61,603 nt of DNA, taken from the NCBI RefSeq assembly GCF_008933605.1, contig NZ_WBUS01000003.1:1-61603 (forward strand), in the 5' to 3' direction. The translations under genes were made by a program, and so were the position numbers. This document shows, one piece after another, positions 15,404-18,030 of this stretch; the stretch's first letter is position 1, and the number at the start of each line of letters is the position of its first letter. Below the pieces are notes generated by a model. The model made no database searches and had not been told where the DNA came from. It saw only the letters and a list, made by a program, of their open reading frames with translations. This DNA comes from Albidovulum sp. (lineage in GTDB: Bacteria; Pseudomonadota; Alphaproteobacteria; Rhodobacterales; Rhodobacteraceae).

Positions 15404-16027
15404 ATGACCCGCAGCCTGATCCCCGGCATCCTTGCCATGGCCGCCATCGTTGTAGCCTCGAACATCCTCGTGCAGTTCCTCTTCGGCCAGTGGCTGACCT
15501 GGGGTGCCTTCTCCTACCCCTTCGCGTTCCTCGTGACCGACCTCACGAACCGCTTCCAGGGCCCTTCTGCCGCGCGCAAGGTGGTGGTCGCGGGGTTCCT
15601 CGTGGGTCTGGCCTGCTCGCTCGTCGGCACCCAGATCATGGGCGAGTTCGGCCCGCTCGTGACCCTGCGCATCGCGGCCGGGTCCGGGGCGGCCTTCCTC
15701 GTCGCCCAGCTCATGGACGTGCATGTGTTCAACCGCCTGCGCACGGGAAGCTGGTGGCGCGCGCCCCTTGTCTCCACGCTGGTGGGCTCCACGCTCGATA
15801 CCGCGATCTTCTTCACCACCGCCTTCTCGGCGACCCTCGCCTTCCTCGAACCCGCCAATGACGTGTCCTGGGCGGGGGAGGTGATGCCGCTTCTTGGCGG
15901 GGGTCCGGCCGCCCCGCTCTGGGTCTCGCTCGCCGTCGCCGACTGGCTCGTCAAGCTGTCGCTCGCGATCCTGGCACTGGTGCCATTCCGCGTAATTGTT
16001 ACAAGGGTGACAGAAAAAGTTGCGTGA
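15404..16027 (+). CDS. yhhQ: VUT family / queuosine precursor transporter
   Basis: MTRSLIPGILAMAAIVVASNILVQFLFGQWLTWGAFSYPFAFLVTDLTNRFQGPSAARKVV is typical of YhhQ. Confidence 0.88.
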   Translation: MTRSLIPGILAMAAIVVASNILVQFLFGQWLTWGAFSYPFAFLVTDLTNRFQGPSAARKVVVAGFLVGLACSLVGTQIMGEFGPLVTLRIAAGSGAAFLVAQLMDVHVFNRLRTGSWWRAPLVSTLVGSTLDTAIFFTTAFSATLAFLEPANDVSWAGEVMPLLGGGPAAPLWVSLAVADWLVKLSLAILALVPFRVIVTRVTEKVA

Positions 16028-16060
16028 AAATGTTTGACAGACACAAAATCTGTGGCAGCC

Positions 16061-16069
16061 TGTGGATAA
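16061..16069 (-). promoter_or_regulatory. Perfect consensus DnaA box (TTATCCACA on minus strand)
   Basis: Plus strand TGTGGATAA, the exact reverse complement of TTATCCACA, in the yhhQ-distal intergenic region. Confidence 0.5.
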
Positions 16070-16080
16070 CGGCAACCCAG

Positions 16081-16098
16081 AGAAAGGAGGTGATCCAG
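16081..16098 (+). promoter_or_regulatory. Hyper-extended Shine-Dalgarno: 18-nt perfect complement to the expected alphaproteobacterial 16S rRNA 3' end
   Basis: AGAAAGGAGGTGATCCAG is the reverse complement of CTGGATCACCTCCTTTCT. It directly abuts a GTG start codon (16098), with 7 nt between GGAGG and GTG. Confidence 0.8.
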
Positions 16099-16154
16099 TG
16101 TCTAGAGTGATATTGGAGAGAGGTGTCGGGACAGTCAGGGGGGCCGTGGCCTGA
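16098..16154 (+). CDS. Candidate 18-aa small protein MSRVILERGVGTVRGAVA
   Basis: GTG TCT AGA GTG ATA TTG GAG AGA GGT GTC GGG ACA GTC AGG GGG GCC GTG GCC TGA, preceded at ideal spacing by the extended SD. Too short for the ORF track. Confidence 0.6.
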   Translation: MSRVILERGVGTVRGAVA

Positions 16155-16236
16155 GGGCAACCCCGAGGGTTAAGAACCCTGACTGGGCCTAGTCGATCTT
16201 CGACACCCTAACTGGCCCATCTCCGTAGATCTCGGA

Positions 16237-16264
16237 GGGCCGTTCCCACCCGGAACGGCCCTTT
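16237..16264. terminator. Strong terminator-like hairpin between the small transcript candidate and the convergent transglycosylase
   Basis: GGGCCGTTCC CACCC GGAACGGCCC TTT, a 10-bp perfect stem. Confidence 0.7.
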
Positions 16265-16281
16265 CCATTCCGGGGCACCGG

Positions 16282-17427
16282 TCAGCCGAGGCTGCGCAGC
16301 AGCGCGAGCGACGGCTCTCCGGTGACCGGCAGGCGGCGGCTCGCCTGCCAGGCCCTGATCGCGTCCCGGGTCCTCGCGCCGATGACCCCGTCGGCGCCGC
16401 CCGTATCATAGCCGAGCGCCGTCAAACGTTGCTGCAGAGCGATGCGGTCGGCCTTTGTCATGCCGTTCGCGTCGGGTGGGAAGCTCGCCCGCAGGGGGCC
16501 CGCGCCGCCGATGCGATCCGCCAGGAGGCCCACGCCGAGCGCATAGGAATCGGAGTTGTTGTAGCGCTTGATGGCGCCGAAGTTGCCGGTGACCGAGAAG
16601 ACCGGGCCCCCGGCCTGTGGCTGGATCGCGCTGCCCGCCGGCGCTCCGGCGCCGGCCTCGCCGCCCCAGCGCTGGCCGCGGCGCCAGCCGCTCTGGGCCA
16701 GATAGTTGGCGGTGGAGGCGAGCGCGTCGGTCGGATCGTCGGACCAGATGTCTCGCCGCCCGTCACCGGTGAAGTCGACCGCGTGGGCGAGGTAGGTGGT
16801 GGGGATGAACTGCGTGTGCCCCATCGCGCCGGCCCAGCTGCCGGTCATGCTGGCGGGCGTGGTGTCGCCGTTCTGAAGGATCTTCAGCGCCGCGACGAGC
16901 TGGCTTTCGAAGAACGCGCCGCGCCGCCCGTCATAGGCCAGCGTCGAGGTGGCGGAGATCACCGGGACATCGCCGCGGCGCTCGCCATAGTAGCTTTCGA
17001 GGCCCCAGATCGCCGCGATGATCGTGGCGTCCACGCCGAAGCGCGCCTCCAGCGCCGACAGGGTCGCGCGGTGCGCGGCGAAGGCGGCGCGACCCTTGGC
17101 CACCCGCTCGTCCGACACCGCGATCGAAAGATAGTCCTCGAGACTGCGCTTGAACTCGGTCTGGTTGCGGTCGCGGGTAACCACGCCGGGCAGGTAGCCC
17201 GCGCCACGGAAGGCCGAGGCGACGGTCGCGTCGTTCAGTCCGTACTGCCCCGCCCGGCCGCGGAACGCTGCGACCCAGGCGTCATAGCCCGGATTGGCGA
17301 CCGGGCGCAGGTCCTCCGCGAGCGTCGCGGGACCGCTGCTCGCAAGGCGCGTGGCGCCGGGTGTTGCGCAGGCGGCAAGGCCCGTCAGGGCCAGCCCGAG
17401 TCCGAAGGTTCGTCTGGAAATCATCAT
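16282..17427 (-). CDS. Lytic murein transglycosylase (MltB-like SLT domain plus peptidoglycan-binding domain), lipoprotein
   Basis: MMISRRTFGLGLALTGLAACATPG (lipobox LAAC); WGLESYYGERRGDVPVISATSTLAYDGRR...AMGHTQFIPTTYLAHAVDFTGDGRRDIW; C-terminal PG_binding_1-like repeat. Confidence 0.92.
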   Translation of the reverse strand: MMISRRTFGLGLALTGLAACATPGATRLASSGPATLAEDLRPVANPGYDAWVAAFRGRAGQYGLNDATVASAFRGAGYLPGVVTRDRNQTEFKRSLEDYLSIAVSDERVAKGRAAFAAHRATLSALEARFGVDATIIAAIWGLESYYGERRGDVPVISATSTLAYDGRRGAFFESQLVAALKILQNGDTTPASMTGSWAGAMGHTQFIPTTYLAHAVDFTGDGRRDIWSDDPTDALASTANYLAQSGWRRGQRWGGEAGAGAPAGSAIQPQAGGPVFSVTGNFGAIKRYNNSDSYALGVGLLADRIGGAGPLRASFPPDANGMTKADRIALQQRLTALGYDTGGADGVIGARTRDAIRAWQASRRLPVTGEPSLALLRSLG

Positions 17428-17607: not shown

Positions 17608-18030
17608 ATGCTCCGGATCACCGACACCATAGCCATCGCCGACTGGGAGGTCACCGAGACCTTCTCGCGCGCCTCGGGACCCGGCGGGCAGAACGTGAAC
17701 AAGGTCTCGACCGCGGTGGAACTCCGGTTCGAGGCGGACCGCAGCCCGCACCTGTCTCCGGCCGTCAAGGCGCGGCTGAAGCGGCTCGCGGGGCGACGCT
17801 GGACGCTCGACGGCGCCATCGTGATCCGCGCCGAGGAAACACGGAGCCAGGCCCGCAACCGCGAGATCGCGCGAGAACGTCTGGCGGAGATCATCCGTGC
17901 CGCGCTCGTGGCTCCGAAGCGGCGCATCGCCACGAAGCCGACGGCGGGCAGCGAACGGCGGCGCCTGAAGGCGAAGGCCCTGCGCGGCGAGGTGAAGAGC
18001 CTGCGGGGGAAGATCGGCGAGGAAGAGTAG
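17608..18030 (+). CDS. arfB: Alternative ribosome-rescue factor ArfB (peptidyl-tRNA hydrolase, YaeJ)
   Basis: MLRITDTIAIADWEVTETFSRASGPGGQNVNKVSTAVELRF (GGQ motif in the RF-1-like domain) with a basic C-terminal tail. Confidence 0.93.
   Translation: MLRITDTIAIADWEVTETFSRASGPGGQNVNKVSTAVELRFEADRSPHLSPAVKARLKRLAGRRWTLDGAIVIRAEETRSQARNREIARERLAEIIRAALVAPKRRIATKPTAGSERRRLKAKALRGEVKSLRGKIGEEE

Follow-up and report, generated by a model that had tools for sequence, protein, structure and literature searches.

Genomic location and parts of the RNA gene

The stretch of Albidovulum sp. DNA analysed here, referred to below as the window, is 61,603 nt long and contains an intergenic region between a gene for a queuosine-precursor (VUT) transporter and a convergent gene for an MltB-type lytic transglycosylase (16282-17427, minus strand). 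In the window, arfB (17608-18030) is located 1.5 kb away, beyond the convergent gene. The intergenic region carries a small RNA gene with a very long Shine-Dalgarno (SD) sequence, termed here the hyper-SD, and a short open reading frame (sORF). The following features were recognised.

16034-16061, plus strand: putative promoter, with TTGACA at 16034-16039 and a weak -10 element CAGCCT at 16056-16061, spacer 16
about 16070-16264, plus strand: whole RNA gene of about 190 nt, a probable divergent relative of CC2171 (RF01867), based on the RF01867 match, conservation and a fold z-score of -3.4
16081-16098, plus strand: hyper-SD, exact complement of 16S CTGGATCACCTCCTTTCT
16094-16117, plus strand: start-codon hairpin UCCAGUGUC (16094-16102) / GAUAUUGGA (16109-16117), enclosing the GUG start, from the RNAalifold consensus
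16098-16154, plus strand: 18-codon sORF MSRVILERGVGTVRGAVA with a GTG start (16098-16100) and a TGA stop, the stop position being conserved
16132-16185, plus strand: central stem CAGTCA (16132-16137) / TGACTG (16180-16185), enclosing a stop-codon hairpin, based on covariation
16211-16224, plus strand: internal imitation of the 16S tail, ACTGGCCCATCTCC, complementary to the hyper-SD segment GGAGGTGRTCCAGT, based on conservation of pairing
16236-16264, plus strand: intrinsic terminator AGGGCCGTTCC...GGAACGGCCCTTT, based on covariation

From the putative promoter, the 5' end of the RNA is predicted at about 16068-16074. A generic sigma-70 scan of the region found no promoter; TTGACA and a -10-like hexamer with A2 and T6 occur at the same distance in many relatives. 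In the region 16236-16290 the terminator stands between the two genes that converge on it, and it is probably shared with the lytic transglycosylase gene on the minus strand.

Complementarity to the 3' end of 16S rRNA

The 18-mer AGAAAGGAGGTGATCCAG at 16081-16098 is the exact complement of the 16S 3' end of related genomes. This end was taken from ten relatives, and the self-complementarity in the window genome is inferred from them: CTGGATCACCTCCTTTCTAAGGATG, the exact complement of the 18-mer, was present in all 10 of the other Rhodobacteraceae where the end was readable. Most genomes examined (G000, G010 and others) gave neither an RF00177 match nor a 1492-region primer site, their 16S genes presumably being masked, and because these genes are absent from most of the sequences any test of rRNA pairing is limited. 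Covariation of 16S with the G/A variant of the element was dropped as an argument for the same reason, the 16S being constant where it is present; the GGTCC variant of the element (e.g. in genome G150, locus L074) keeps a G-U pair.

The core GGAGG lies 7 nt 5' of the GTG, and the 18-mer ends on the first G of that codon. In the 3.66-Mb genome the 15-mer AGAAAGGAGGTGATC has a single copy, and in dinucleotide shuffles of the window matches to it with up to two mismatches averaged 0.05. The earlier note had claimed a perfect 18-nt anti-16S sequence that was unlikely to arise by chance, and both claims are borne out. Measured over the 22 nt before the start codon of the sORF, the duplex with the 16S tail has an energy of -28.7 kcal/mol, as compared with a best value of -15.7 and a median of -9.3 kcal/mol for the 36 other gene-like ORFs in the window; the pairing is thus about twice as strong as that of the next-best start site.

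In 16S rRNA, CTGGATCACCTCCTTTCT forms the single-stranded tail that follows helix 45 and reaches about the mature 3' end. The complementarity covers this tail and ends there, not continuing into the 16S precursor past CTTTCT. Because the pairing reaches the presumed mature end and not the precursor, a role of the RNA as a reporter of 16S maturation is mildly disfavoured. A fragment of a 16S rRNA gene was also considered and rejected, since Rfam finds no rRNA in the window, the sequence departs from 16S directly after the 18-mer and nothing else of 16S is present at the locus.

Conservation and phylogenetic distribution

A DNA search with positions 16000-16270 gave matches in 164 of 199 Rhodobacteraceae genomes, nearly all of different genera, and the most distant matches share query positions 83-135, a segment made up of the hyper-SD and the ORF's first half. 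Lack of conservation in relatives would have refuted the reading of the earlier note, which passed this check, the RNA being present in at least 164 of the 199 genomes. Twenty Rhodobacteraceae genomes that lacked a match in the first search were inspected separately: a near-exact hyper-SD was found in seven, some with an ATG start and a different ORF, and was not found in the other 13. Absence or strong divergence does occur, and the RNA may be dispensable. No variation was seen among 59 aligned relatives in GAAAGGAGGTG, in TCCAGTGTC or at several positions of the ORF, and the hyper-SD is the most conserved part of the RNA.

An exact 20-mer scan revealed the block in Bradyrhizobium, Methylobacterium, Bosea, Ancylobacter, Microvirga and Devosia, as well as in Brevundimonas, Phenylobacterium, relatives of Roseomonas and others. 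Among 385 evenly drawn alphaproteobacteria, AAAGGAGGTGNTCCANTG was present exactly, and once each, in 42, while the reversed control gave none; a draw across the whole phylum gave 44 positives, every one an alphaproteobacterium. The same block was seen in two metagenome-assembled genomes (MAGs), one titled Gemmatimonadota (L097:5051-5070) and one from an uncultured bacterium (L141:4187-4206), where the ORFs are similar and share GQPA (VSVETPGQPARAKRL... and VSEGLSGQPAWASDY...) and are accompanied by structured sequence and a terminator. Judged by these likenesses, the two loci possibly represent a version of the RNA outside Alphaproteobacteria.

In two gammaproteobacterial MAGs (SAR92 and Cellvibrionales; L135:933-952 and L170:1-120), AAAAGGAGGTGATCCAGTGTC belongs to a far more compact unit that resembles a transcript: a terminator follows it after about 45-60 nt, and in L135 tRNA genes are nearby. 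At loci L231 and L244 the same 16-base hyper-SD stands directly 5' of the start codons of ordinary-looking small proteins of secreted type.

Relationship to the CC2171 RNA

No Rfam family matches the window at the gathering thresholds. Judged by E-value, positions 16074-16261 match RF01867, which Rfam lists as the Caulobacter sRNA gene CC2171, over the full model (1-159) with 36.9 bits and E 2.1e-6, a significant end-to-end match that misses the gathering cut-off of 75 bits. In the whole genome this is the single RF01867 match (E 4.5e-6), and 12 relatives from Rhodobacteraceae match alike, with 28-43 bits. Seven loci carrying the block outside Rhodobacteraceae exceed the cut-off; the one Bradyrhizobium-type locus tested (L114) falls below it.

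The window RNA shares with CC2171 an AAC-rich leader, the 5' GAAAGGAGGUGAUCCAGUGUC block, a 3' intrinsic terminator hairpin, the usually single copy and the alphaproteobacterial spread. The RF01867 consensus starts with cAAcaAucGAAAGGAGGUGAUCCAGUGUCUCAUuGuC; in that family, as here, no part is stronger than the hyper-SD. In contrast, the helix that closes CC2171, formed by CAUUGUC, where the ORF begins, and GACAAUG, 5' of the terminator, is missing from the window RNA, where pairing between the hyper-SD and the 16S imitation takes its place, and the peptide differs; in the relative L003 other sequence stands in place of the 5' side of the closing helix, and most of its 3' side is missing or mispaired. 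On these comparisons the window RNA appears to be a divergent relative of CC2171 with the same plan; it is not filed as a member because it stays below the Rfam threshold and lacks the closing helix.

Rfam 15 mentions one covarying pair added to RF01867 (PMC11701678). Mesorhizobium huakuii MH_s33 has been annotated as RF01867 (PMC5596092); this speaks for transcription of a relative, not of the window RNA. As described in the published text, the conserved intergenic sRNAs of Paracoccus denitrificans (PMC5107571) could not be mapped to the locus. The literature searched, with most subscription papers and Landt et al. 2008 outside its coverage, says nothing about a 16S match or an ORF in CC2171/RF01867. 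The earlier note had stated that no system of this kind was described; this does not hold for the RNA as such, whose homologues are catalogued as CC2171 (RF01867) with GAAAGGAGGUGAUCCAGUGUC in the consensus, but it does hold for the architecture in the literature searched.

Secondary structure

Across the 59-sequence alignment the structure is conserved, with 92.6% of cells paired and 127 double-sided changes; none of 500 shuffles reached these values, nor did any slid version. The covariation is carried by the central stem (compensatory changes in three of six pairs, 98% of cells paired), the stop-codon hairpin and the terminator (compensatory changes in nine of ten pairs, 99% of cells paired). 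The pairs of the start-codon hairpin are nearly invariant in the 59 sequences, and this near-invariance leaves little covariation support.

The segment ACTGGCCCATCTCC at 16211-16224 resembles the 16S tail CTGGATCACCTCC. Its helix with the hyper-SD is paired in 86.8% of cells, with little two-sided covariation and a frequent A-C mismatch (22 of 59), and as two-sided change is scarce the case for this pairing rests on conservation. In three lineages the complementarity to the SD exceeds that of dinucleotide shuffles. The piece of the 16S tail that is imitated differs between them, for example TCACCTC in Bradyrhizobium and CTGGATC in the CC2171-like group; the mean z values are -2.1 for Rhodobacteraceae, -1.6 for Bradyrhizobium and -1.4 for the rest, related sequences not being independent. 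The start-codon hairpin and the long hyper-SD pairing are mutually exclusive, since both need the same bases.

Highly conserved stretches outside the consensus helices could also serve as seeds of a trans-acting sRNA that pairs with mRNAs, the binding of ribosomes and translation of the ORF protecting or exposing the seed. Candidate seeds are the CCATCTCC anti-SD segment and the GAGAGGTGTCGGGACAG stretch. This explanation would agree with an autonomous gene ending in a terminator, and dual-function sRNAs exist in alphaproteobacteria, e.g. rnTrpL (PMC10117765). However, the most conserved element of the RNA is complementary to 16S rRNA itself, and we consider such a role unlikely.

Evolution and probable translation of the short ORF

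Among distinct sequences from alphaproteobacteria, the start codon of the ORF is GTG in 204, ATG in eight and TTG in four; CTG was allowed by the search pattern and was never seen among these sequences. The stop falls at codon 19 in 65 of 69 relatives and in 111 of 117 distinct sequences of the Rhodobacteraceae type. Mapped onto a tree of the VUT protein encoded next to the RNA, the stop shows at least 40 switches between TGA, TAG and TAA, of which 26 changes affect base 2 and 24 affect base 3. TGG did not occur at this position anywhere on that tree, and codon 19 lacked the stop in four cases. The Bradyrhizobium-type ORF (L114, L165, L186 and others) has 14 codons and encodes MS[YF]xKRCHLAGIAR, its DNA holding TCACCTC, an exact piece of the 16S tail; here the stop follows codon 14 in 20 of 21 sequences with the KRCHLAG peptide, and all three stop codons are used. 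The start and stop codons are under selection, and because they are preserved through base changes the sORF is very probably translated to a fixed end. The suggestion that the locus encodes a small mRNA engaging the ribosome is therefore well founded, given the conservation of the hyper-SD and the ORF and the way in which the start and stop codons change, as in a translated frame. The more specific roles proposed in the earlier note, a sensor, a decoy or a reporter of 16S maturation or hibernation, are conjectural.

The constraint on the ORF acts mainly on the RNA, with a possible contribution of the peptide. Beyond Met-Ser, the peptides of different orders are unrelated. In Rhodobacteraceae, codon 4 has entropies of 0.80, 1.51 and 0.34 at bases 1, 2 and 3, that is, the first two bases vary and the third is nearly fixed, which points to RNA pairing rather than peptide selection because the region forms the hairpin with the start codon. 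Codon 2 encodes Ser with all four third bases, indicating some conservation at the peptide level. With peptides that change from order to order and a constraint chiefly at the RNA level, the likelier function is ribosome engagement, not the peptide. Stalling at rare codons was rejected as a general mechanism: AGA and ATA are rare in the window genome (2.6 and 3.3 per thousand), and this is true for this branch and not for other orders.

The same data bear on the view that the locus is a gene for a functional microprotein (MSRVILERGVGT...), made abundantly from a very strong SD. The frame and the stop are preserved, the pattern MSR-x-x-LE-x-GVGT is recognisable through Rhodobacteraceae, and codon 2 changes almost only synonymously. 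Yet no peptide beyond Met-Ser is common to other orders, codons 4-5 change mainly at amino-acid-changing positions while their pairing bases stay fixed, the last four codons are hardly conserved, and the codons AGA and ATA are rare in this genome, making a microprotein rather improbable.

Genomic context

Loci of the Rhodobacteraceae type share a common neighbourhood, with the VUT gene directly upstream in 111 of 120. In 85 of 116 loci arfB has the orientation of the RNA and starts 120-420 nt downstream of it; in the remaining 31 of 116 arfB is farther away or was not found. Neither gene adjoins the RNA in 136-138 loci of other types (arfB in 0 of 136), where the neighbours vary and include, for example, RNase R, RF3, PurU and tRNA genes (names by inspection of translations). 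Because neighbours differ between orders and a covarying terminator closes the RNA, it is a free-standing gene with its own putative promoter and terminator, not tied to arfB.

Arrangements of the Rhodobacteraceae type made it attractive to regard the RNA as a cis-acting leader or attenuator of arfB, which encodes a ribosome-rescue hydrolase, that senses the state of ribosomes; the 85 same-strand cases and the rescue function would fit. It was rejected on the context across orders and in the window itself, where the convergent lytic transglycosylase gene separates the RNA from arfB. Apart from the 0 of 136 loci elsewhere, arfB is displaced or missing in 31 of 116 while VUT stays adjacent in 111 of 120, the terminator closes the RNA in the aligned sequences, and, from inspection of the alignment, sequences with GGACC as the first arm do not keep a possible anti-terminator GGCCC/GGGCC, leaving a leader function very improbable.

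A chance match, an assembly artefact or a stray rRNA fragment, for which the use of relatives in place of the window genome's own 16S might have left some room, is already refuted by the family-wide conservation, with the single copy, the covarying structure and the RF01867 match likewise against it.

Proposed mechanism

The best explanation, to which we assign a probability of about one half, is that the locus encodes an autonomous CC2171-related RNA that would act as a translated small mRNA rather than a purely non-coding one, with ribosome engagement as its output. It accounts for a hyper-SD that pairs with about double the strength of its closest competitor in the window, for a core of hyper-SD and ORF conserved across the family, for the evolution of start and stop codons, the codon 4 pattern and the order-specific peptides, and for the internal complement of the SD in three lineages, the structure control and the varied neighbours.

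According to this model, the 16-18 nt of the hyper-SD would pair with the whole single-stranded tail of mature 16S rRNA and capture free 30S subunits very tightly. Without a 30S subunit the RNA would close on itself, the hyper-SD and start region pairing with the 16S-tail imitation or within the start-codon hairpin, and a ribosome would open the closed form by strand displacement. The ribosome would then read the short ORF and stop at a fixed position inside the structured domain. The output would be the engagement itself, either holding free 30S subunits or reporting their supply, and not the peptide, with possible downstream effects on the fold or lifetime of the RNA; this last step is the least certain. 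Capture or sensing of ribosomes is plausible from these features. Very strong SD sequences need not act as traps, and further points against the explanation are the weak two-sided covariation of the helix between SD and 16S imitation, the conserved Ser at codon 2 and the 13 of 20 genomes without the hyper-SD.

More tentative, with the odds against it, is the stronger proposal of an alphaproteobacteria-wide riboregulator that carries both a full-length complement and an imitation of the mature 16S tail, flips between self-closed and ribosome-bound states, and by doing so traps free 30S subunits or senses them, the switch being the translation of a throw-away ORF.

RF01867 is listed as an sRNA, apparently with no role described in the papers searched, and what is conserved in it suggests that its partner is the ribosome and that its ORF is translated. 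If the explanation is correct, an RNA found throughout the class would bind the ribosome by way of the complete 16S tail, and a family catalogued among sRNAs would move to the small-mRNA or dual-function class. It would also offer a testable handle on sensing or buffering of free 30S subunits in bacteria that mostly lack SD sequences.

Comparison with known systems

Type I toxin mRNAs combine a short ORF and a strong SD that is shut by an internal complementary sequence. The window RNA resembles them in its short ORF, strong SD and internal complement able to close it, but its peptide MSRVILERGVGTVRGAVA is, by inspection, charged and not a hydrophobic membrane helix, and a cursory look revealed no antisense antitoxin.

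In Caulobacter, 75% of start codons are not preceded by an SD sequence (PMC4117421). Extended SD sites of Staphylococcus aureus add two base pairs on ordinary mRNAs, with one example in a uORF (PMC13009471); they similarly lengthen SD pairing along the 16S tail, whereas the window RNA has 16-18 contiguous pairs in one dedicated conserved RNA. The rnTrpL/peTrpL RNA of Sinorhizobium is a dual-function, leaderless leader RNA that attenuates trpE (PMC10117765). Like rnTrpL, the window RNA is small, with a very short ORF, translated in rnTrpL, and a terminator; unlike it, the window RNA possesses a hyper-SD and has no fixed downstream gene.
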